NCBI GenBank assembly: GCA_018241725.1 | Contig: JAFEDI010000068.1 | Coordinates: forward strand, 84,561-148,560 | DNA: 64,000 bases | Source: Pseudomonadota bacterium | GTDB lineage: Bacteria; Pseudomonadota; Gammaproteobacteria; Burkholderiales; Rhodocyclaceae | Direction: 5' to 3' | The notes under the pieces: generated by a model | The model's database searches: none | Told to the model about the DNA's origin: nothing | What the model saw: the letters and a program-made list of their open reading frames with translations, nothing else | Program-made: the position numbers and the translations under genes | In this document: piece after piece, positions 3,321-41,141 of the stretch | Layout: each line of letters begins with the position of its first letter | How positions within the stretch are numbered: the first letter of the stretch is position 1

Positions 3321-5510
3321 ATGACCGCCATGCGCCCCTTCCCGATCGCACGCTTCGCTTCCGGCCTCGCTGTACTGGCCCTGGGTCTTGTTGCCGACAC
3401 CGGCTTCGCCGCGTCGTCCCGCGCCAGCACGCCACAGGTCGAGGCCGAACTCGTCGCCTCCGCCACCGCCATCCGCCCCGGCGACGAGATCCAGCTCGGT
3501 GTGCGCCAGAAGATCATTCCCCACTGGCACACCTACTGGGTCAATCCCGGCGACTCCGGCCTCGCCACTCAGATCGCGTGGACGCTGCCCGACGGCGCCC
3601 GTGCCGGCGATATCCAGTGGCCGACGCCCGGCCGCTTCAAGCTCGGCCCGGTGGTCAACTACGGCTACGAGAACGAAGTCACCCTGCTCACCACTGTCAC
3701 GGCGCCGGCCGACCTGCAGGCCGGTGGACGCTTCCCGGTGAAGGCCACGGTGGACTGGCTGGTCTGCCAGGAAACCTGCATCCCGCAGCAGGTCGAGCTG
3801 GAACTGGCGCTCCCCGTCGTCGCGGCCGGCAGCGCCGTCGGTCCTGGCAGCCCGCTGATCGAACAGGCCCGCGCCAGCCTCCCCGTCGCCAGCCCGTGGC
3901 CCATCGACATCCGCGCGGGCAAGGACGCCCTCACGCTGCGCATCGCCGACGCGCGGCTGGCCGCCCGTTTCGCCGGCCAGGCACCCGGCGAACTGTGGTT
4001 TTACGCCGAGCAGTGGGGCAAGACCGCCCACGACGCGCCACAGCCGGTCACCATTGTCGGCGATGCCCTCGAAATCCATATCAAGCCCGGCGACGAGCCG
4101 CCCAAGGCCGGCGAGACCCTCGTCGGCGTGCTGAGCATCCGCGATGGCGACGGCAAGCTGCAGAGTTATCGCATTGCCGCGCCGGTGTCCGCGGCAGTGG
4201 GCGCCACCGCGACTGCGCCGCAAGCCACCGAAAGCGCCAACCTCGGCATCGGCATGGCCGTGCTGCTGGCCCTCGCTGGCGGGCTGGTCCTCAACCTGAT
4301 GCCCTGCGTCTTCCCGGTGCTATCCATCAAGGCCTTGTCCGTGCTGCGCCACGCCGGCCACGATCGCGCCCAGGTCCGCCTGCAGGGCCTCACCTATACC
4401 GCCGGTGTGCTGGCCAGCTTTGCCGCCCTCGGCGCCGTGCTGATCGCACTCAAGGCGGGCGGCGCCCAGGTCGGCTGGGGCTTCCAGTTCCAGTCGCCGC
4501 CCTTTGTACTGGCGGTGGCCTACCTGATGTTCGCGGTCGGTCTGAGCCTGTCCGGGGTGTTCACGCTGGGCGCGTCGGCGGCCGGCCTCGGCGCCTCACT
4601 GGCCGACAAACCGGGCTATGCTGGCAGCTTCTTCACCGGCGTGCTGGCCACGGTGGTCGCCACGCCGTGCACCGCCCCCTTCATGGGCGCCGCCCTCGGC
4701 TTCGCGCTGGGCCAGCCGGCGCCGGTGCTGCTGGCGGTGTTCCTCAGCCTCGGCCTGGGCCTCGCCCTGCCCTACCTGCTGCTGTGCTTCTGGCCTGCCC
4801 TGCAGCGCGCGCTGCCGCGCCCCGGCGTGTGGATGGAGCGGGTCAAGCAGGCGCTGGCCTTCCCGATGTACGGTGCCGCTGTATGGCTGGTGTGGGTACT
4901 GGCCCAGCAGGCTGGCCCCAACGCCATTGCCATCGCGCTGGGCGGCATGCTGGCCATCGCCTTCGCCGCCTGGCTCTACGACAGCAGCCGCCATGCCCAT
5001 GTTTTCGCCCGCCACGGCAGCACCGGCCTGGCTGTGCTGACGCTGCTCACGGCACTGCTCGGCGGCTACGCCGGCGTGCAGGCCAGCGTCGCCAACGCGG
5101 CCGCACCGGCCACGGCCGGCGCCGCCAAGCACGCTTTGGAGCCCTACAGCAAGACCCGCTTCGACGAACTGCGCGCCGCCGGCAAACCAGTATTTGTCAA
5201 TTTCACCGCTGCGTGGTGCATCACCTGCCTGGCCAACGAGAAGGTCGCCCTCAGCGATGCCGGCGTGACGGCCGCCTTCCGCCAGGCCGGCATCACCTAC
5301 CTGAAGGGCGACTGGACCAATCAGGACCCGCAGATCTCCGCCCACCTGGCGGAGTTCGGGCGCAGCGGCGTGCCGCTCTACCTGCTCTACCCGGCCGGCG
5401 GGGGCAACGCGCCGCAGGTGCTGCCCCAGCTGCTCACCCCCGCCACGGTCCTGTCCGCCATCGCCGCGGCCGGACCGGCCACCGCTTCCCCCAAACTCGC
5501 CAAGGAGTGA
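3321..5510 (+). CDS. dsbD: DsbD-family protein-disulfide reductase
   Basis: The product has 729 residues. Electrons from cytoplasmic thioredoxin are passed across the inner membrane to periplasmic thiols. Order of parts: signal peptide (about 1-33); an N-terminal periplasmic domain with two Cys (C149, C153) and the phrase PHWHTYWVNPGDSG typical of the DsbD/ScsB sensor domain; an eight-helix membrane core with its two redox Cys (C329 in LMPCVFP and C450 in ATPCTAP); and a C-terminal thioredoxin domain with WCITC (C633, C636). All three cysteine pairs are thus present. I chose ATG 3321, which gives a good signal peptide, although no clear Shine-Dalgarno precedes it; ATG 3330 is the alternative. 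The thioredoxin-fold gene starting 5 bases downstream is a likely redox partner. Confidence 0.9.
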   Translation: MTAMRPFPIARFASGLAVLALGLVADTGFAASSRASTPQVEAELVASATAIRPGDEIQLGVRQKIIPHWHTYWVNPGDSGLATQIAWTLPDGARAGDIQWPTPGRFKLGPVVNYGYENEVTLLTTVTAPADLQAGGRFPVKATVDWLVCQETCIPQQVELELALPVVAAGSAVGPGSPLIEQARASLPVASPWPIDIRAGKDALTLRIADARLAARFAGQAPGELWFYAEQWGKTAHDAPQPVTIVGDALEIHIKPGDEPPKAGETLVGVLSIRDGDGKLQSYRIAAPVSAAVGATATAPQATESANLGIGMAVLLALAGGLVLNLMPCVFPVLSIKALSVLRHAGHDRAQVRLQGLTYTAGVLASFAALGAVLIALKAGGAQVGWGFQFQSPPFVLAVAYLMFAVGLSLSGVFTLGASAAGLGASLADKPGYAGSFFTGVLATVVATPCTAPFMGAALGFALGQPAPVLLAVFLSLGLGLALPYLLLCFWPALQRALPRPGVWMERVKQALAFPMYGAAVWLVWVLAQQAGPNAIAIALGGMLAIAFAAWLYDSSRHAHVFARHGSTGLAVLTLLTALLGGYAGVQASVANAAAPATAGAAKHALEPYSKTRFDELRAAGKPVFVNFTAAWCITCLANEKVALSDAGVTAAFRQAGITYLKGDWTNQDPQISAHLAEFGRSGVPLYLLYPAGGGNAPQVLPQLLTPATVLSAIAAAGPATASPKLAKE

Positions 5511-29942: not shown

Positions 29943-30970
29943 TCGACCGTCGCCTCGGCGAACAGCTGGATCTCGATCTCGCCCGCATCGACGAGTTCCT
30001 TGACCTGCCCCATGATCTCGGCGCGCACTTGTTCGACGCGGCTGCGCGGTACCGGGCCGCTGCGCCGCATCAGATCCTCGAAGCCCTGTGCCTGGCGGCG
30101 TGGCATGGCGCGCAGGATGGCGTCGCGCACCGCCGGCTCGGCGCCCTTGAGGGCAATCGCCCACTGGTCGAGGGCCACTTCCTCGATGAGGCGGGTGATG
30201 ACCTCGTCGTTCTGACGGGACAGGACGTAGAAGTCGTACATGCTGACCTCGATCTCCGACACCATCTCCGGATCGTGGGCACGCAGCATCTCGACCATCT
30301 GCTGGCGGTTGCCGGGCAAGCGGTTGAGAATCTCGGCGGCGTGGCGCACACCTTCCACACTGGCGCTCTGCAGGCCCAGGCTGTCGAGGCAGCGGAGGAC
30401 CATCTCCTCCAGCTCGATCAGCAGTTCGCGGTCGATCTCGGTGAGGCGCGCCACGTTGAGCAGCACCTGATCACGACTGTCGGTGGGCAAAGCATCGACG
30501 ATCTCGCTGGCCAGCGCGGCCGGCAGGAAGGCCAGGAACACCGCCTGCATGCGTACGTGTTCGTTGATCAGCTGCTCGGCCAGCCACTTCGGCGAGGCCC
30601 ACTGCAGGCGCGCCATCTTCGGGCGGATCTCGTCGCCGTAGATCTTGTTGAGCACGCTGCCGGCGATGTCGGCGCCAAGAGCAAGGTCGAGGGAGCGCCG
30701 CAGGTAGGTGCGCGACGCGCCATGCACGCCGCTCTGCTCCCGGTAGTCGTCGAAGAAGCGCTGCAGCGAGCTCTTCACCGCCTCCACCTTGATGCCGCTC
30801 ATCCGCGACATCACCTGGGTGACCTCCAGCAGCTCCTCGCGGGACAGGCAGCGCAGCACCGCGGCGGCGGGCTCCTCACCCATCGACAGCAGCACGATGG
30901 CAGCCTGCTCCACCGGCGTCGGCGTGGCACCGGGGACGATCATGTCGGGCAGATTATTCGCTTCGGCCAT
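29939..30970 (-). CDS. fliG: Flagellar motor switch protein FliG
   Basis: The product has 343 residues. The N-terminal FliF-binding region (EQAAIVLLSMGEEPAAAVLR), the middle armadillo region with EHPQ-like packing (ALPTDSRDQVLLNVARL), and the C-terminal torque helix with charged residues (SRVEQVRAEIMGQVKELVDA) are all seen. It overlaps fliF by 17 bases. It is the rotor part that meets the MotA stator. Confidence 0.95.
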   Translation of the reverse strand: MAEANNLPDMIVPGATPTPVEQAAIVLLSMGEEPAAAVLRCLSREELLEVTQVMSRMSGIKVEAVKSSLQRFFDDYREQSGVHGASRTYLRRSLDLALGADIAGSVLNKIYGDEIRPKMARLQWASPKWLAEQLINEHVRMQAVFLAFLPAALASEIVDALPTDSRDQVLLNVARLTEIDRELLIELEEMVLRCLDSLGLQSASVEGVRHAAEILNRLPGNRQQMVEMLRAHDPEMVSEIEVSMYDFYVLSRQNDEVITRLIEEVALDQWAIALKGAEPAVRDAILRAMPRRQAQGFEDLMRRSGPVPRSRVEQVRAEIMGQVKELVDAGEIEIQLFAEATVE

Positions 30971-32609
30971 TTTTCTGCATCCATTGGCGGACCACTTCGG
31001 CGACGCGCTCCGGCTCCTTCGCCGACAGCACCTTCAGGTGTTCGACCATCACGTCCACCGGCGAACCCGGGGCCGGCAGGTCGTAGTTTTCGAGCAGGCC
31101 GGCGACCGGCATGCGCTGGGTATCGGGGGCGGCCAGGGCGGCATGGGCGGCCGGCGCGGCGAGTTCCGGACTGGTGGGCTCCTGTGCTTCCGCCAGCTCT
31201 TCGACGGTCTCGGCTGCGGGCAACGCCAGACGCTGCTGGACCAGCTTCATCAGCGGACGGACGATGAACAGGAAGGCCAGCAGCAGGCTGATCGCGTAGG
31301 CCAGCCAGCTCGCCATCTCGATGATGTTGTCGCGTTGCTGCCACCAGGCCACGCTGTCATCCACCGGCTTGCGGAAGCCGCTGGCGGTGACGACCAGGCT
31401 GTCGCCACGCGCCGCGTCGATGCCGAGGCCGCTGCGCAGCACCTTGTCCACATTGGCCAGCGCTTCCGGCGTCCAGGTCTTGCCGTCGGGGGCCGCAGCG
31501 TTGTTCATCACCACCGCCACGGAGAGCTTCTTCAGGCGGCCGCGGCTGCGCTTCACCTGGGTCACGCTTCGGTCGTAGGCGTACTGGCGGGTGGTGGCGT
31601 TCTTCTTGGTGGTCGCCGCCTCCGGCTCCTCGTCGGCCTTCACCGCCACCGGGCGGTTGCTGAGGGAGCCCGGCACGCCGACCGCCAGCGGATCGCGGCC
31701 GTTCTCGGTACGCATCGCCTCATTGGTGATCTTCGGCGCCTCGCCGTAGCGTTCGGTGGTTTCCTGGATGCGGTCGTTGTCCACCTCGGCGGTGACGCTG
31801 ACCTTGAAGTTGCCCGTGCCAAGCATCGGCAGCAGGAGATCCTCGGCATTGCGCTGGGTCTCGTCGCGGAAACGGTGGGACGCGTCGTTGAGCTGGGCAC
31901 CCTCGAAGCCCTCGCTGAGATCGACGCGGGCGGACAGCAGGTTGCCGGCCTGATCGACCACGCTGACCCGCTGCGGATCAAGGCTGGCGACGCTGTTGGC
32001 GACCATGTTGATGATCGCCGCTATCTGCTCGGGGCTGAGGGAACGGCCGGCCTTGAGGGCCAGCACCACCGACGCGGTGCTCTTCTCGCCGTCATTGACG
32101 ACGAAGGACGAAGAGCGCGCGATGGACAGGTGCACCCGCGCCGAATCCACCGCGTCGAGGGTCATGATGCTCTGTACCAGCTCCCCTTCGAGGCCGCGGC
32201 GGAAGCGCACGTCCTGCACGAACTGGCTGACCCCCAGCGGATCGTTGCGGTCCATCAGCTCCAGCCCCTGCGGCAGCTTGGCAACTACGCCCTTGGCGGC
32301 CAGCAGCATGCGCACTTCGCCGAGGCGCTTGGCCGGCACCAGCACCTGACCGGAATCCGGATGGAGCCGGTAAGGGATGCCCTGGGCGTCGAGCAAGGCG
32401 ATCATCTCGGCCGACGCCACCTTCTCGCGGCTGCCGAACACCGGCTTGTAGCCCGCCTGGTCGTTCCACGCGAACATCAGCACCAGCGCGGTGATCGCCA
32501 GCGCCAGCAGCACGATGGGCAGCAGGCCCTTGACGAAACCCGGCGGCAGCTTCGGCAGGCCGCCGGGGGCGCGCAGGCGGGCCAGAGCGGGAGAGAGGGA
32601 GAGATTCAC
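30954..32609 (-). CDS. fliF: Flagellar MS-ring protein FliF
   Basis: The product has 551 residues. A first membrane helix is seen near residue 30-47 (LPIVLLALAITALVLMFAW). The ring-building domains include YRLHPDSGQVLVPAKRLGEV and VRFRRGLEGELVQSIMTLDA, the latter an IEGEL-like signature. A second membrane helix lies near residue 430-450. The cytoplasmic C-terminus binds FliG. It follows fliE by 21 bases. Confidence 0.96.
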   Translation of the reverse strand: MNLSLSPALARLRAPGGLPKLPPGFVKGLLPIVLLALAITALVLMFAWNDQAGYKPVFGSREKVASAEMIALLDAQGIPYRLHPDSGQVLVPAKRLGEVRMLLAAKGVVAKLPQGLELMDRNDPLGVSQFVQDVRFRRGLEGELVQSIMTLDAVDSARVHLSIARSSSFVVNDGEKSTASVVLALKAGRSLSPEQIAAIINMVANSVASLDPQRVSVVDQAGNLLSARVDLSEGFEGAQLNDASHRFRDETQRNAEDLLLPMLGTGNFKVSVTAEVDNDRIQETTERYGEAPKITNEAMRTENGRDPLAVGVPGSLSNRPVAVKADEEPEAATTKKNATTRQYAYDRSVTQVKRSRGRLKKLSVAVVMNNAAAPDGKTWTPEALANVDKVLRSGLGIDAARGDSLVVTASGFRKPVDDSVAWWQQRDNIIEMASWLAYAISLLLAFLFIVRPLMKLVQQRLALPAAETVEELAEAQEPTSPELAAPAAHAALAAPDTQRMPVAGLLENYDLPAPGSPVDVMVEHLKVLSAKEPERVAEVVRQWMQKNGRSE

Positions 32610-32630: not shown

Positions 32631-32969
32631 TTAGAGCGGCAGCTTGATGAGGTCGTCCATCGCGCCGACCATCTTGTTGCGGACCTGCATCAGCATCGAG
32701 AAGGACAGGCTGGCTTCCTGACTGGACAACATCGCCCCCACCAGATCGTCGCTACGGCCGCTGTCCACGTCGGCCATGCGCTCGCCGGCGACTCGGTCCT
32801 TCTCGTTGACGCCCAGCACGGCCTGCTTGAGGTGCTCGCCGAAGCCGTCGGCTTCGGAGCTGGCCGCATCCAGCAGATTGGCTGCCGGCACGACCAGGTC
32901 GGCGGCCGGCAGGCTGCCCTGCAGCTTCATCAGGTCGGCGCCGATCGACGCCAGCATTTCAGTCACCAC
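32631..32969 (-). CDS. fliE: Flagellar hook-basal body adaptor FliE
   Basis: About 112 residues are encoded from the GTG at 32969, which has AGGAG six bases upstream. The first ATG (32957, 108 residues) has no site at a fitting distance. SFSMLMQVRNKMVGAMDDLI and EASLSFSML at the C-terminus are the conserved FliE signature. It links the MS ring to the rod. It is the first gene of fliEFGHIJ, transcribed from the long leader between 32970 and 33580. Three consecutive GTG codons make the exact start uncertain. Confidence 0.9.
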   Translation of the reverse strand: MVTEMLASIGADLMKLQGSLPAADLVVPAANLLDAASSEADGFGEHLKQAVLGVNEKDRVAGERMADVDSGRSDDLVGAMLSSQEASLSFSMLMQVRNKMVGAMDDLIKLPL

Positions 32970-33042
32970 CACACTCTCCTTCGGAAACGGGATGCGCCGG
33001 AATGGCGCCCCGCACGCACCAGCCGGTGGGGCGGGATTCAAT

Positions 33043-33054
33043 CGCCAATTGGCG
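33043..33054. promoter_or_regulatory. Perfect 12-bp palindrome in the fliE leader
   Basis: CGCCAATTGGCG is fully self-complementary and lies 73 bases upstream of the fliE start. It could be a regulator operator close to an internal promoter. No regulator is assigned. Confidence 0.35.
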
Positions 33055-33209
33055 TTGCGTTTTTTCGGGAAAAAGAAACCCCTCGCACGCTCAATGCGGC
33101 AATTGAAAAAACGAACGAATAAATCGACGAAAACGAATTGAACTGGCAATAAGGCCGGAATTAAAACCGGACGCAAATAGACCTCGCGCCAAATTGAATC
33201 GGGCGAAGG

Positions 33210-33232
33210 GGATCAGAAGAAAACCCTGATCC
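33210..33232 (-). other. Hairpin after the seven-codon ORF
   Basis: GGATCAG (33232-33226) pairs with CTGATCC (33216-33210) around a nine-base loop, 61 bases downstream of the short ORF stop. No T run follows. Confidence 0.35.
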
Positions 33233-33292
33233 GGATCCAGGCGTACGGAGAGCAGGCGAACGACACCATGCCAAGACGGCCCTGGTGCGTGT

Positions 33293-33316
33293 TCAGACGA
33301 GAATGTGATGGTTCAT
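33293..33316 (-). CDS. Possible seven-codon leader peptide ORF
   Basis: ATG AAC CAT CAC ATT CTC GTC TGA encodes MNHHILV. It is preceded by GAGGG seven bases before the ATG, a good ribosome site. It lies in the fliE leader, downstream of the riboswitch, and its distance to the GTCGCCTTT motif (62 bases) matches the distances at fliC, flgK and fliD (46-60). This supports real translation initiation here, but the ORF is too short for any coding statistics. A leader peptide or a non-functional remnant are both possible. Confidence 0.3.
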   Translation of the reverse strand: MNHHILV

Positions 33317-33378
33317 GCGCTTTCCCTCATTGATGTGCTCGGGACGCACACATAGGAAAGACGAGGCGCAGCCGCCAG

Positions 33379-33387
33379 AAAGGCGAC
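33379..33387 (-). repeat. Leader motif GTCGCCTTT in the fliE leader
   Basis: Fourth copy of the 9-mer, followed by a CGCC/GGCG mini-stem. It lies between the riboswitch and the seven-codon ORF. Confidence 0.45.
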
Positions 33388-33439
33388 AACACAGACCCGG
33401 CGCGGCGTACAGGCAAAGCCCACACGGACAACAACCGGC

Positions 33440-33459
33440 GGAACCGAGTCAGCGGTTCC
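33440..33459 (-). promoter_or_regulatory. Hairpin directly downstream of the riboswitch aptamer
   Basis: GGAACCG (33459-33453) pairs with CGGTTCC (33446-33440), six-base loop, starting five bases after the aptamer. The tail GCCGGTTGTTGTC has only scattered T, so it is a weak terminator at best. It is the natural candidate for the expression platform. Confidence 0.45.
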
Positions 33460-33464
33460 TGTCT

Positions 33465-33545
33465 GGCAACCCCGCTATCGTAGCCCGTAAGAGCTTTAGA
33501 CCGGAGGCTTTGCGACCCCGTCTTTCGAACGGGTGTGCCCAAATT
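33465..33545 (-). promoter_or_regulatory. Cyclic-di-GMP-I (GEMM-I) riboswitch upstream of fliE
   Basis: The minus strand from about 33540 to 33465 matches the GEMM-I aptamer almost base for base. GGGCACACC corresponds to the GGGCAAACC start. Then come a stem capped by the GAAA tetraloop (GTTCGAAAGAC), the invariant CGCAAAGCCTCCGG, CTAAAG, and the closing TAGCGGGGTTGCC. The first G of GGG aligns with the ligand-contacting G20 of the well-studied Vibrio Vc2 aptamer, which favours c-di-GMP rather than cyclic GMP-AMP. It lies 40 bases downstream of a sigma70-like promoter and about 500 bases upstream of fliE in the same orientation. It should therefore tune fliEFGHIJ expression to the c-di-GMP level. 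The direction of the effect cannot be read from sequence. Confidence 0.9.
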
Positions 33546-33579
33546 TAAGTTTTCGCGGTTTTGGTCGCGAGTTGGAGTG

Positions 33580-33608
33580 ATTATGCCCAGAAGCTTTCCG
33601 CCAGGCAA
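33580..33608 (-). promoter_or_regulatory. Sigma70-like promoter of the riboswitch-fliE transcript
   Basis: TTGCCT (33608-33603), exactly 17 bases, then CATAAT (33585-33580). Transcription would start near 33573, about 30 bases before the aptamer core. Confidence 0.6.
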
Positions 33609-33619
33609 TCATTTTTTTC

Positions 33620-33640
33620 AATTCAGCCCCAGGCTGAATT
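33620..33640. promoter_or_regulatory. 9-bp inverted repeat upstream of the fliE promoter
   Basis: AATTCAGCC, CCA, GGCTGAATT is a perfect dyad with a three-base centre, 12 bases upstream of the -35 box and 170 bases before fliM on the other strand. It is a likely site for a regulator of the divergent operons. The rest of 33641-33809 is AT-rich and holds the presumed fliM promoter, which I could not define. Confidence 0.5.
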
Positions 33641-33809
33641 AATCGATAAACGGCCCATCAATTCCTGTTGCGTTAAATCGAATTAATCCGCAAACTAAAA
33701 ATAATTAGATCCAAGTCTTTCCGGATTAAGAATTCAGGAAACGCCATTCGCGGGCGAAACGCGACCGGCATTCTGCTCGAATTGCCGGACAATCATTGGT
33801 AATACAGAC

Positions 33810-34664
33810 ATGCAGAAATCCGCAGCGCAGCGCGGTGGAATGACGCTCGACCCTCTCTCGCTGGGACGCCCGCTCCACTTGCTGGAGCGCTTCACCGCGC
33901 TCGCGCGGGACGATCTCGACGAGGCCTTGCGCGGCAGCCTGAACCGTCGCTATCGCGCGCAGTTCGAAGTCGCAGACGTCCGCCTCGTGCCCGTCGACCG
34001 CCTCCCTGAGCACCGCCGCTGGAACGGCTACACGCACGAACGGGGCCGTATCGATTTCGCGCTGGACCGCCAACTCCTGCTGTGCGCCCTCGACTACCGC
34101 TACGGTGCCCACCCGGTAAGCAAGGCCGGTCCGCGGGACGAGGCGCCGGTGACGGCAACGGAAGAACGCCTCGCCGCGTTGCTCGGGCGGCGCTTCACCG
34201 GAGTACTGGTGGATCGCCTGGAAGGACGTGCTCCGTCCCACGACGGCAGCGCCCACACCGGACGCCTGCTCGGTGACGCGACGACGGCACTGCGCCGCCA
34301 GGGCGCCTGGGCCCTGCGCGTCGGCATGCGCGAACGGAGCCACGGCATCGACGGCGGCATGTACTTCCTGCTCGAGGAGGCCTGGCAGCGCCATCTTCTG
34401 CAGCAACTGGCACCCACGCGCGATCGACCTGGCGAACCGGCCGCGGCCCAGCCTTTCCCGCACCGCCTGCGGCTCGCGCTGACGGCCCGCCTGCTGGAGA
34501 AGGACATCCCGCTGGGGCGCCTGCTCGACCTGCGGGTTGGCGACGTGATCCCGGTGCGCCTGGGGCCGTCCGACATCCTGGTCGACGATTCCCGGCTGTT
34601 CACGGCCCAGGTCGTGGAGCACAAGGGCAAGCTTTGTTTAACCGCTTTTGAAGATGTGGAGTGA
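33810..34664 (+). CDS. fliM: Flagellar motor switch protein FliM, short form without CheY-binding peptide
   Basis: The product has 284 residues, about 50 shorter than ordinary FliM. The conserved N-terminal CheY-P binding peptide (LSQAEIDALL type) is absent; the protein starts MQKSAAQRGGMTLDPLSLG. The middle domain phrases RIDFALDRQLLLCALDYRYG and TEERLAALLGRRFTGVLVD, and the C-terminal SpoA domain (LTARLLEKDIPLGRLLDLRV) are present. This is the form seen in lateral systems, whose motors do not take CheY input in the usual way. No Shine-Dalgarno is seen before ATG 33810; ATG 33840 is an alternative. It is the first gene of the fliMNPQR-flhBA operon. Confidence 0.85.
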   Translation: MQKSAAQRGGMTLDPLSLGRPLHLLERFTALARDDLDEALRGSLNRRYRAQFEVADVRLVPVDRLPEHRRWNGYTHERGRIDFALDRQLLLCALDYRYGAHPVSKAGPRDEAPVTATEERLAALLGRRFTGVLVDRLEGRAPSHDGSAHTGRLLGDATTALRRQGAWALRVGMRERSHGIDGGMYFLLEEAWQRHLLQQLAPTRDRPGEPAAAQPFPHRLRLALTARLLEKDIPLGRLLDLRVGDVIPVRLGPSDILVDDSRLFTAQVVEHKGKLCLTAFEDVE

Positions 34665-40319: not shown

Positions 40320-41141
40320 ATGGCCGCCGCGACCGCATCCCACCTCAACCCGCTGGCGCGGGACTTTCTCGCCCGCCTGCCGCAGGAGCCCGTCCCCGGC
40401 AAGCAGCTGCACCGCACGGAGAACGGTGCGGTGGTGGGCGACTGGTTCGGCTTCGAGCTGTCGAGCGCCTTCCAGTCCATCGTCGATGCGACCAGCGGCG
40501 CCGTCGTAGGCCGCGAGGCCTTCCTGCGCAGCCACGGCCCGGACGATGACGGGCTGTCGCCATGGACGCTGTTCTCCGCCGCCGCCGAAGATGCCCGCCT
40601 GATCGCCCTCGACCGCCTGGCGCGCACCCTGCACCTGCTCAACGCGCTGGCCGCCGGCAACGATGTGCCGCTCTTCCTCAACGTACATGGCCGCCTGCTG
40701 GCCGCCGTCGGCGACGACCACGGCCGCGCCTTCCGCCGGGTGGTGGACGCCCTTGGCGTGGCGCCGGACAGCATCGTCATCGAAACGCCGCCGGAAGCCA
40801 GCGCCCAGCCCGACCTGCTGGCCTTCGTGCTGCGCAACTACCGCAACAACGGCTTCCGCGTGGCGGTCAATGTGGAGTCCGCGGCCCAGTGGCAGGCCAT
40901 CGCCAACACCGTGTGGCCGCAGTTCGTGAAGGTGGACCGGCGCAAGCTCGGCAGCGGCGTCGAAGCCCACGAGCGCCTCAAGTGGCTGGCCGCCCTGCGC
41001 GAAGACGCCCGCATCATCGTCACGCATGTGGAGGAGCCGGCACCGGAACTGGCCGCCGACCACGTGCTGCTGCAGGGCTACGCCTATGGGCTCCCGGTCG
41101 GTGCCAGCGCCTTCGCGCAGGAACTGCGCTCCGGGGATTAA
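40320..41141 (+). CDS. Degenerate EAL-domain protein
   Basis: The product has 273 residues. The EAL fold is recognisable: EAFLR (66-70) for EALLR, the metal Asn in LFLNVHG (N121), Glu in IVIETPP (E155), Lys in FVKVDRRK (K204) and LQGYAYGLP near the end. The DDFG motif needed for metal and catalysis is replaced by NVES around residues 184-187, so c-di-GMP hydrolysis is doubtful. Such proteins often act as c-di-GMP receptors or, like YdiV, as protein-binding regulators of flagellar genes. It starts 143 bases after flhA behind a GGAGTC ribosome site. The interval contains a TTGGCAG box that could be half of a sigma54 promoter but has no clear partner. Confidence 0.8.
   Translation: MAAATASHLNPLARDFLARLPQEPVPGKQLHRTENGAVVGDWFGFELSSAFQSIVDATSGAVVGREAFLRSHGPDDDGLSPWTLFSAAAEDARLIALDRLARTLHLLNALAAGNDVPLFLNVHGRLLAAVGDDHGRAFRRVVDALGVAPDSIVIETPPEASAQPDLLAFVLRNYRNNGFRVAVNVESAAQWQAIANTVWPQFVKVDRRKLGSGVEAHERLKWLAALREDARIIVTHVEEPAPELAADHVLLQGYAYGLPVGASAFAQELRSGD

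Follow-up and report, generated by a model that had tools for sequence, protein, structure and literature searches.

A c-di-GMP-I riboswitch in the leader of a lateral-type fliE operon of a Zoogloea relative, with a candidate translational gate downstream of the aptamer

Sequence comparison identifies a c-di-GMP-I riboswitch ahead of fliE, in what appears to be the 5′ leader of a lateral-type fliEFGHIJ operon, in a relative of Zoogloea (a genus that the NCBI taxonomy assigns to Zoogloeaceae, Rhodocyclales), and the aptamer is predicted to bind its ligand. Modelling predicts that a strand downstream of the aptamer can form a duplex with the aptamer 5′ half that excludes the aptamer fold. The proposal that this leader is a translational OFF switch controlled by c-di-GMP, with translation of a short open reading frame (ORF) deciding fliE expression, has in our judgement about an even chance of being correct. 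The window, by which we mean the entire 64,000-nucleotide stretch of DNA analysed, contains the following features around the aptamer.

33810 to 34664, plus strand: fliM, head of the divergent operon (NCBIfam; FliM scores under its curated cut-off)
33580 to 33608, minus strand: sigma-70-like promoter TTGCCT-17-CATAAT (consensus scan)
33462 to 33549, minus strand: c-di-GMP-I aptamer, RF01051 (covariance model; own-genome search; 89% column identity across four genus members)
32631 to 32972, minus strand: fliE (NCBIfam TIGR00205), GTG start at 32972, 32969 or 32966
30954 to 32609, minus strand: fliF, lateral-type (TIGR00206)

A search of the whole window with Rfam cmscan returned a single c-di-GMP-I match, at 33549-33462 on the minus strand, which scores 75.4 bits against a gathering score of 35 (E 5.5e-13) and covers model positions 1-87 of 87, the full length. 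This covariance-model check confirms the GEMM-I core that a preliminary description had placed on the minus strand between fliE and fliM; the span given there, 33465-33545, identifies the right aptamer but is 3 to 4 nt short at each end. A chance match was set aside given the 75 bits and the conservation of position. Judged by eye in the alignments, the bases at the ligand contacts are kept (G in GGGCA, A in CGCAAA, and C in UUGCC), where we take the contacts and their numbering to be G20, A47, and C92 of Vc2. At two further alignment positions, presumably A24 and A43 of Vc2, a C is present in 10 of the 12 fliE- or fliM-linked copies and a U in all 12, respectively. These unusual bases lie next to P2 (GGCACAC in 10/12, GUCGCAAA in 12/12) and both also occur in L026 and in the G564 copy (L154), neither of which precedes flagellar genes as far as could be seen. 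A search of the organism's own genome found two more c-di-GMP-I aptamers, at 74.6 and 58.7 bits. By eye, the second aptamer of the genome (L002 1501-1589; G000 contig C76) precedes a lipoprotein-like gene, with the ribosome site of its leader in a hairpin abutting the ATG, while the third, at 58.7 bits (L003 1501-1588; G000 contig C31), precedes a gene for a small hydrophobic protein. Another genus member carries two c-di-GMP-I aptamers (L021/L030; G005 contig C41) about 240 nt apart on opposite strands.

The aptamer is on the fliE strand, upstream of fliE and preceded by a promoter-like site, and so appears to occupy the leader position of a motility gene. Two further elements of the preliminary description were recovered. 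The TTGCCT-17-CATAAT promoter just upstream of the aptamer was located at 33608-33580 (minus) as the sole site in a consensus scan of 32900-33830, with 9/12 matches, where shuffles gave a mean of 0.4. The aptamer is also in line with fliEFGHIJ: fliE to fliI were identified by NCBIfam, with FliG scoring below its curated cut-off, and fliJ by Pfam, all on the same strand. In four genus members the promoter region has 75% identical columns compared with 53% for the rest of the intergenic region, a value that is somewhat low because one alignment row is incomplete. A small stem, UCGCG..CGCGA at 33553-33570 (minus), lies between the presumed start site and the aptamer and is kept in four genus members; it is perhaps a 5′-end stabiliser. 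From the aptamer end to the first possible fliE start (GTG 32972) is 489 nt. In the other direction, fliM, fliN, fliP, fliR, flhB, and flhA run divergently from 33810, with the FliM, FlhB, and FlhA matches all below curated cut-offs. A second aptamer for fliM was considered and rejected, as the Rfam scan of the whole window found none before fliM at gathering score, although one related genome (G025) has one.

The FliI and FliH proteins of the cluster match NF005535 (PRK07196) and NF009925 (PRK13386) above cut-off. We take these to be lateral-type models, and by the models the window's flagellar set would be lateral-type. Of 23 genus genomes, 20 have some FliF, and four, the window's own among them, have one that matches the window's FliF at 96-100%; the genus relatives G006, G013, and G014 are Zoogloea sp. 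LCSB751 and the metagenome assemblies SZAS-78 and SZAS-77. All four genomes that carry the window's FliF encode a second FliF that is 35-36% identical to it. In the window's genome this second FliF (35% identical) lies on another contig, where the search covered FliF alone, and because of its presence the window's flagellar set is considered an extra one. Directly downstream of flhA, at 40320-41141 (plus), Pfam identifies an EAL-domain protein that by eye keeps an EAL-like motif and K-V-D, without the DD of active phosphodiesterases. It thereby resembles LafV of Vibrio parahaemolyticus, a degenerate EAL protein at the end of the lateral flagellar operon (PMC9303241), being itself degenerate and beside lateral-type flagellar genes. 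Homologues in genus members without the window's FliF speak against a lateral-only role. The gene was rejected as part of a conserved circuit, given that these homologues reach 75% identity and that a search of two flagellar stretches from G025 and G180 did not find it.

Conservation in related genomes, which the preliminary description had named as a check, was found within the genus: among the 23 genomes searched, the aptamer is upstream of fliE in 4/4 that have the window's FliF. More widely, FliF at E 1e-75 or better was present in 15 of 297 sampled family genomes and in 5 of 300 order genomes, 4 of them new, and the 19 family and order loci were examined with ~1.5 kb beyond each FliF match. 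Eight of these 19 carry an aptamer upstream of fliE at gathering score; in the other 11 (five g6 genomes, G198, G245, and four order genomes) none was found there. One of the eight, G025, has a second aptamer copy facing fliM. Its near-identical cassettes (L064) face apart, at 4329-4416 (+) and 3889-3976 (-), before fliE and the fliM operon, and both carry an ORF beginning MIEPAVSSKP. Named genomes were scanned with an alignment of eight FliE proteins, and the best 80 of 399 stretches encoding relatives were used. A model built from 26 aptamers finds an aptamer in 7 of these best 80 loci, and Rfam, run on 16 of the 80, gave 4 matches, all within the seven. The seven comprise three genus relatives, Ca. 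Dactylopiibacterium carminicum (identical with G175), and three new carriers: a Steroidobacteraceae MAG (L090), an Aquabacterium MAG (L114), and Aquincola tertiaricarbonis (L143). The total found is 11 genomes with 12 aptamers linked to fliE or fliM.

In a FliF tree of 95 loci, in which L067 and L066 are on very long branches, a single supported group of 16 rows takes in 10 of the 11 rows with a riboswitch, its other six members being five Steroidobacteraceae and one unassigned row. The riboswitch label requires 4 changes on this tree compared with 10.6 in shuffles, a difference to which near-copies contribute. One old acquisition with losses is likely from these sequences, with the place of Aquabacterium unsure. 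The riboswitch-less g6 relatives share another element before fliE: TAAAGTTY-N11-GTCGATA, which we take to be sigma-28-like, is present in 5/5 (L058, L060, L061, L063, L065). A looser form of this motif is absent from all seven riboswitch leaders tested and from the 600 nt before the FliE match in 79/79 named loci (the L075 slice missed fliE). The lateral-type aptamer core was tried as a marker of fliE leaders and rejected; apart from the window's own genome, only one of 399 order genomes had a match, and that match precedes an unrelated small gene.

Downstream of the promoter, the leader can be divided into the following elements.

33511 to 33540, minus strand: aptamer 5′ half, which can pair with the anti-aptamer strand instead of adopting the aptamer fold (pairing prediction)
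33440 to 33459, minus strand: platform hairpin A, GGAACC..GGUUCC, or AGAACC..GGUUCU in G013 (folding)
33397 to 33438, minus strand: platform hairpin A2 (folding)
33371 to 33387, minus strand: platform hairpin B, GUCGCC-UUUCU-GGCGGC (folding)
33342 to 33370, minus strand: anti-aptamer strand (longest inverted repeat; duplex energy)
33320 to 33360, minus strand: possible ribosome-site hairpin CUUUCC..GGGAAAG, overlapping the anti-aptamer strand (folding)
33323 to 33328, minus strand: likely Shine-Dalgarno sequence GAGGGA of the short ORF (by eye)
33293 to 33316, minus strand: 7-codon ORF, MNHHILV and stop (start and length kept, 79% identical columns, four genus members)
32990 to 33292, minus strand: unconserved tail of the leader (in four genus members 37% of columns are identical, and 50 of 345 contain gaps)

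Across the four Zoogloea-type genomes, identical columns make up 89% of the aptamer, 72% between the aptamer end and the start codon at 33316, 79% of the 7-codon ORF, and 37% of the tail up to the fliE ribosome site, after which fliE has 80%. The encoded peptides are MNHHILV, MNRYLLV, and, twice, MNCHILV. In 11 of the 12 sites a start codon, chosen by eye and preceded by a purine-rich stretch, lies 145-165 nt past the aptamer (that of Aquincola was not placed). The ORF that begins at this putatively gated start has 7-8 codons in Zoogloea, Dactylopiibacterium, and g27, 61 codons in G025, where it overlaps the fliE start, at least 37 on the fliM side of G025, where the locus ends, and 124 in Aquabacterium; in the Steroidobacteraceae MAG (L090) the start is fliE's own. 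Because the peptides differ across lineages, the recurring feature is the start site and its distance rather than the peptide. This arrangement qualifies the earlier view that c-di-GMP sensing would stand at the head of the fliE operon: the aptamer does head a lateral-type fliE operon, but control of fliE would be indirect in the window, because the expression platform, the 7-codon ORF, and a gap of about 320 nt from that ORF to fliE lie between.

The longest inverted repeat reported in the 931-nt region 32900-33830, with arms allowed up to 400 nt apart, joins aptamer positions 33516-33540 to platform positions 33342-33366, and for the window the duplex of aptamer 5′ half and platform has a predicted energy of -36.8 kcal/mol. 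We rejected an invertible switch like that of Clostridioides difficile, as the longest inverted repeat is this one and the others are 17 nt or less. The same search shows that UCUGGC of platform hairpin B can also pair with the aptamer 3′ end. When aptamers and downstream strands were permuted among seven lineage representatives, 12 of 5040 permutations, the real one counted, were as good as the real pairing or better; for Aquincola an arbitrary downstream end of 160 nt was used. Only the whole set stands out, since several aptamers find a better partner in the strand of another lineage. The best pairing site has another layout in L057, L114, and L143. Compared with shuffles, the anti-aptamer duplex has a mean z of -1.71 in 10 fliE leaders and -0.52 in 18 other c-di-GMP-I leaders (Mann-Whitney p 0.019, with four of the ten fliE leaders near-copies). 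The former are 10 of the 12 copies, L062 and the fliM-side copy of L064 being excluded, and the latter are 18 of 26 non-fliE genus aptamer loci, from which eight near-copies were excluded by eye. The duplex reaches p<0.05 in 5/10 fliE leaders and also in 5/18 control leaders (L028, L026, L013, L010, L022), and fails against shuffles in L034 (0.33), L064 (0.45-0.48; fliM side 0.195), L114 (0.12-0.135), L035 (0.12), and L057 (0.06-0.08).

Folding predictions for the Zoogloea-type leaders place the aptamer 5′ half in pairs with downstream sequence when no constraint is applied. With the aptamer enforced, the ribosome site is in a hairpin in 4/4 of these leaders, at a cost of 6.9, 4.4, 9.8, and 14.8 kcal/mol above the unconstrained fold, before any ligand energy. 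The platform folded without the aptamer gives the ribosome site an unpaired probability of at most 0.27 in 9/10 sites and 0.44 in L059. In the unconstrained fold this probability is predicted to rise clearly in only 3/10 sites (L035, L036, L059). It rises slightly in the window, from 0.27 to 0.32, and in L034, from 0.24 to 0.31, and hardly changes in L057, both copies of L064, L090, and L114. The strands of the ribosome-site hairpin differ yet match: CUUUCC/GGGAAAG, GCAGCCCC/GGGGCUGC, CCUUCC/GGAAGG, and CUCUCC/GGAGAG. Single-site significance of this hairpin was set aside as mostly not reached: against shuffles, the hairpin alone is better only in L057 (65 nt) and L090 and not in the window, the ribosome-site duplex is better only in L057, and L059 and L062 have no clear hairpin. 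Of 46 consensus pairs in the Zoogloea platform, 15 vary, with some kept by changes on both sides (e.g. columns 91-110, 97-104, and 126-142) and three broken in one sequence each (124-144, 129-139, and 182-232). In Zoogloea the anti-aptamer fold allows AUGAGG, at the ribosome site, to pair with the last part of the short ORF, and this predicted pairing speaks against a clean picture there.

In the proposed mechanism, the anti-aptamer duplex would form at low c-di-GMP, so that ribosomes could reach their site at 33323-33328 and use the start codon behind it. At high c-di-GMP the aptamer would fold and release the strand, which would pair with and block the ribosome site, so that c-di-GMP would turn the leader OFF at translation. 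We infer this direction, which folding of the window's own leader weakly supports. In L090, where the start codon is that of fliE, gating would be direct. In the window, translation of the short ORF would decide whether the transcript survives or continues into fliE, perhaps through Rho-type termination or decay, which is a guess. This coupling of short ORF to fliE is the weakest step of the proposal, and a 7-codon ORF would not shield the tail of about 320 nt. The longer ORF of G025 overlaps the fliE start, which suggests translational coupling there. A broader reading, possible but on the doubtful side, treats the conserved cassette of aptamer, anti-aptamer strand, and start codon 145-165 nt on as a two-step RNA gate specific to the lateral flagellum; it would gate fliE or a short leader ORF on whose translation expression of the basal-body operon depends, and would have been copied to both divergent operons in one lineage.

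The same aptamer could instead control termination of transcription within the leader, the C. difficile mechanism, with the short ORF incidental. There, Cdi1_3 has a long 5′UTR, with a promoter 496 bp before flgB and a terminated transcript of ~160 nt (PMC3649979), and in 32900-33830 we found five terminator-like sites where 1.7 were expected, four of them downstream of the promoter. By eye, however, none of these four combines a strong stem with a long run of U immediately after it, and the gated start and its spacing recur while the peptides differ, with the codon in L090 being fliE's own; we consider termination rather unlikely. An ON switch, in which c-di-GMP raises expression of the short ORF and fliE, would agree with the existence of class I switches of either direction (PMC6366702), and the pairing that the anti-aptamer fold allows between AUGAGG and the ORF end could occlude the ribosome site when ligand is absent. 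The hairpin that holds the ribosome site in all four aptamer-enforced Zoogloea-type folds argues the other way. Motility genes are usually turned down by c-di-GMP, which also speaks against an ON switch; we judge it improbable.

Least probable of all is an aptamer that still folds but has lost control of fliE, with fliE driven by an internal promoter in the tail. Bc1 of Bacillus thuringiensis offers a precedent, binding c-di-GMP while downstream expression is unchanged (PMC11218506), and the tail is long and unconserved. Nonetheless, scans of the tail, which covered a sigma-70-like consensus and the sigma-28-like motif of the five riboswitch-less relatives only, found no site of either kind, and conservation is much higher in the aptamer and platform than in the tail.

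The closest known system to the proposed OFF switch is in C. difficile, where a class I OFF switch with early termination is found in the long leader of the flgB operon (PMC3649979, PMC6366702), Rho also acts in that leader (PMC7446863), and c-di-GMP shuts flagella off; motility genes are among those for which class I switches are named (PMC6366702). Cd1, or Cdi1_3, shares with the window a class I aptamer, a leader of ~500 nt, and an early-stage flagellar operon, and the OFF direction proposed here fits the lowering of flagella by c-di-GMP in C. difficile. What is reported for C. difficile also differs: it is a Firmicute with peritrichous flagella, its termination near 160 nt is thought to be Rho-independent, and the same flgB leader contains an invertible switch. 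In the window, by contrast, the set is lateral-type and stands beside another FliF in the genome; the short ORF is conserved, we saw no strong terminator, and the control proposed is translational. The class I switches of V. cholerae are likewise Proteobacterial aptamers described as not acting by termination (PMC6366702). B. thuringiensis Bc1 also has a class I aptamer, a long platform, and possible dual control, although with dual intrinsic terminators and, as far as its abstract states, no flagellar target (PMC11218506). Eleven riboswitches and lateral flagella are reported in Aeromonas salmonicida, not linked to each other in the text available (PMC2556355).

No characterised riboswitch before a lateral-type fliE was found in the literature, of which mostly papers outside subscription were within reach. 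To our knowledge, the V. cholerae class I riboswitches, Vc1 and Vc2, are not on a flagellar structural operon. The preliminary description knew of no characterised lateral-type example, which agrees with our search, but it did not mention the early flagellar operon case of C. difficile flgB; since that riboswitch is already characterised, the kind is known and the novelty lower. What is new, as far as the literature searched shows, is the lateral-type target, the presence of a copy at both operons, and the proposed gating of a short ORF. The earlier reading of a riboswitch at a lateral fliE operon is thus partly supported, with transcript continuity and the direction of control predicted.

The relatives form a natural comparison set for this proposal, with the aptamer before fliE, in two copies, or gating fliE directly, and with others that have the sigma-28-like motif and no aptamer. 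If the proposal is true, a surface-commitment signal would stop one flagellum early in its assembly in a cell that has two, and the block would act directly via RNA, without a protein regulator at that step.
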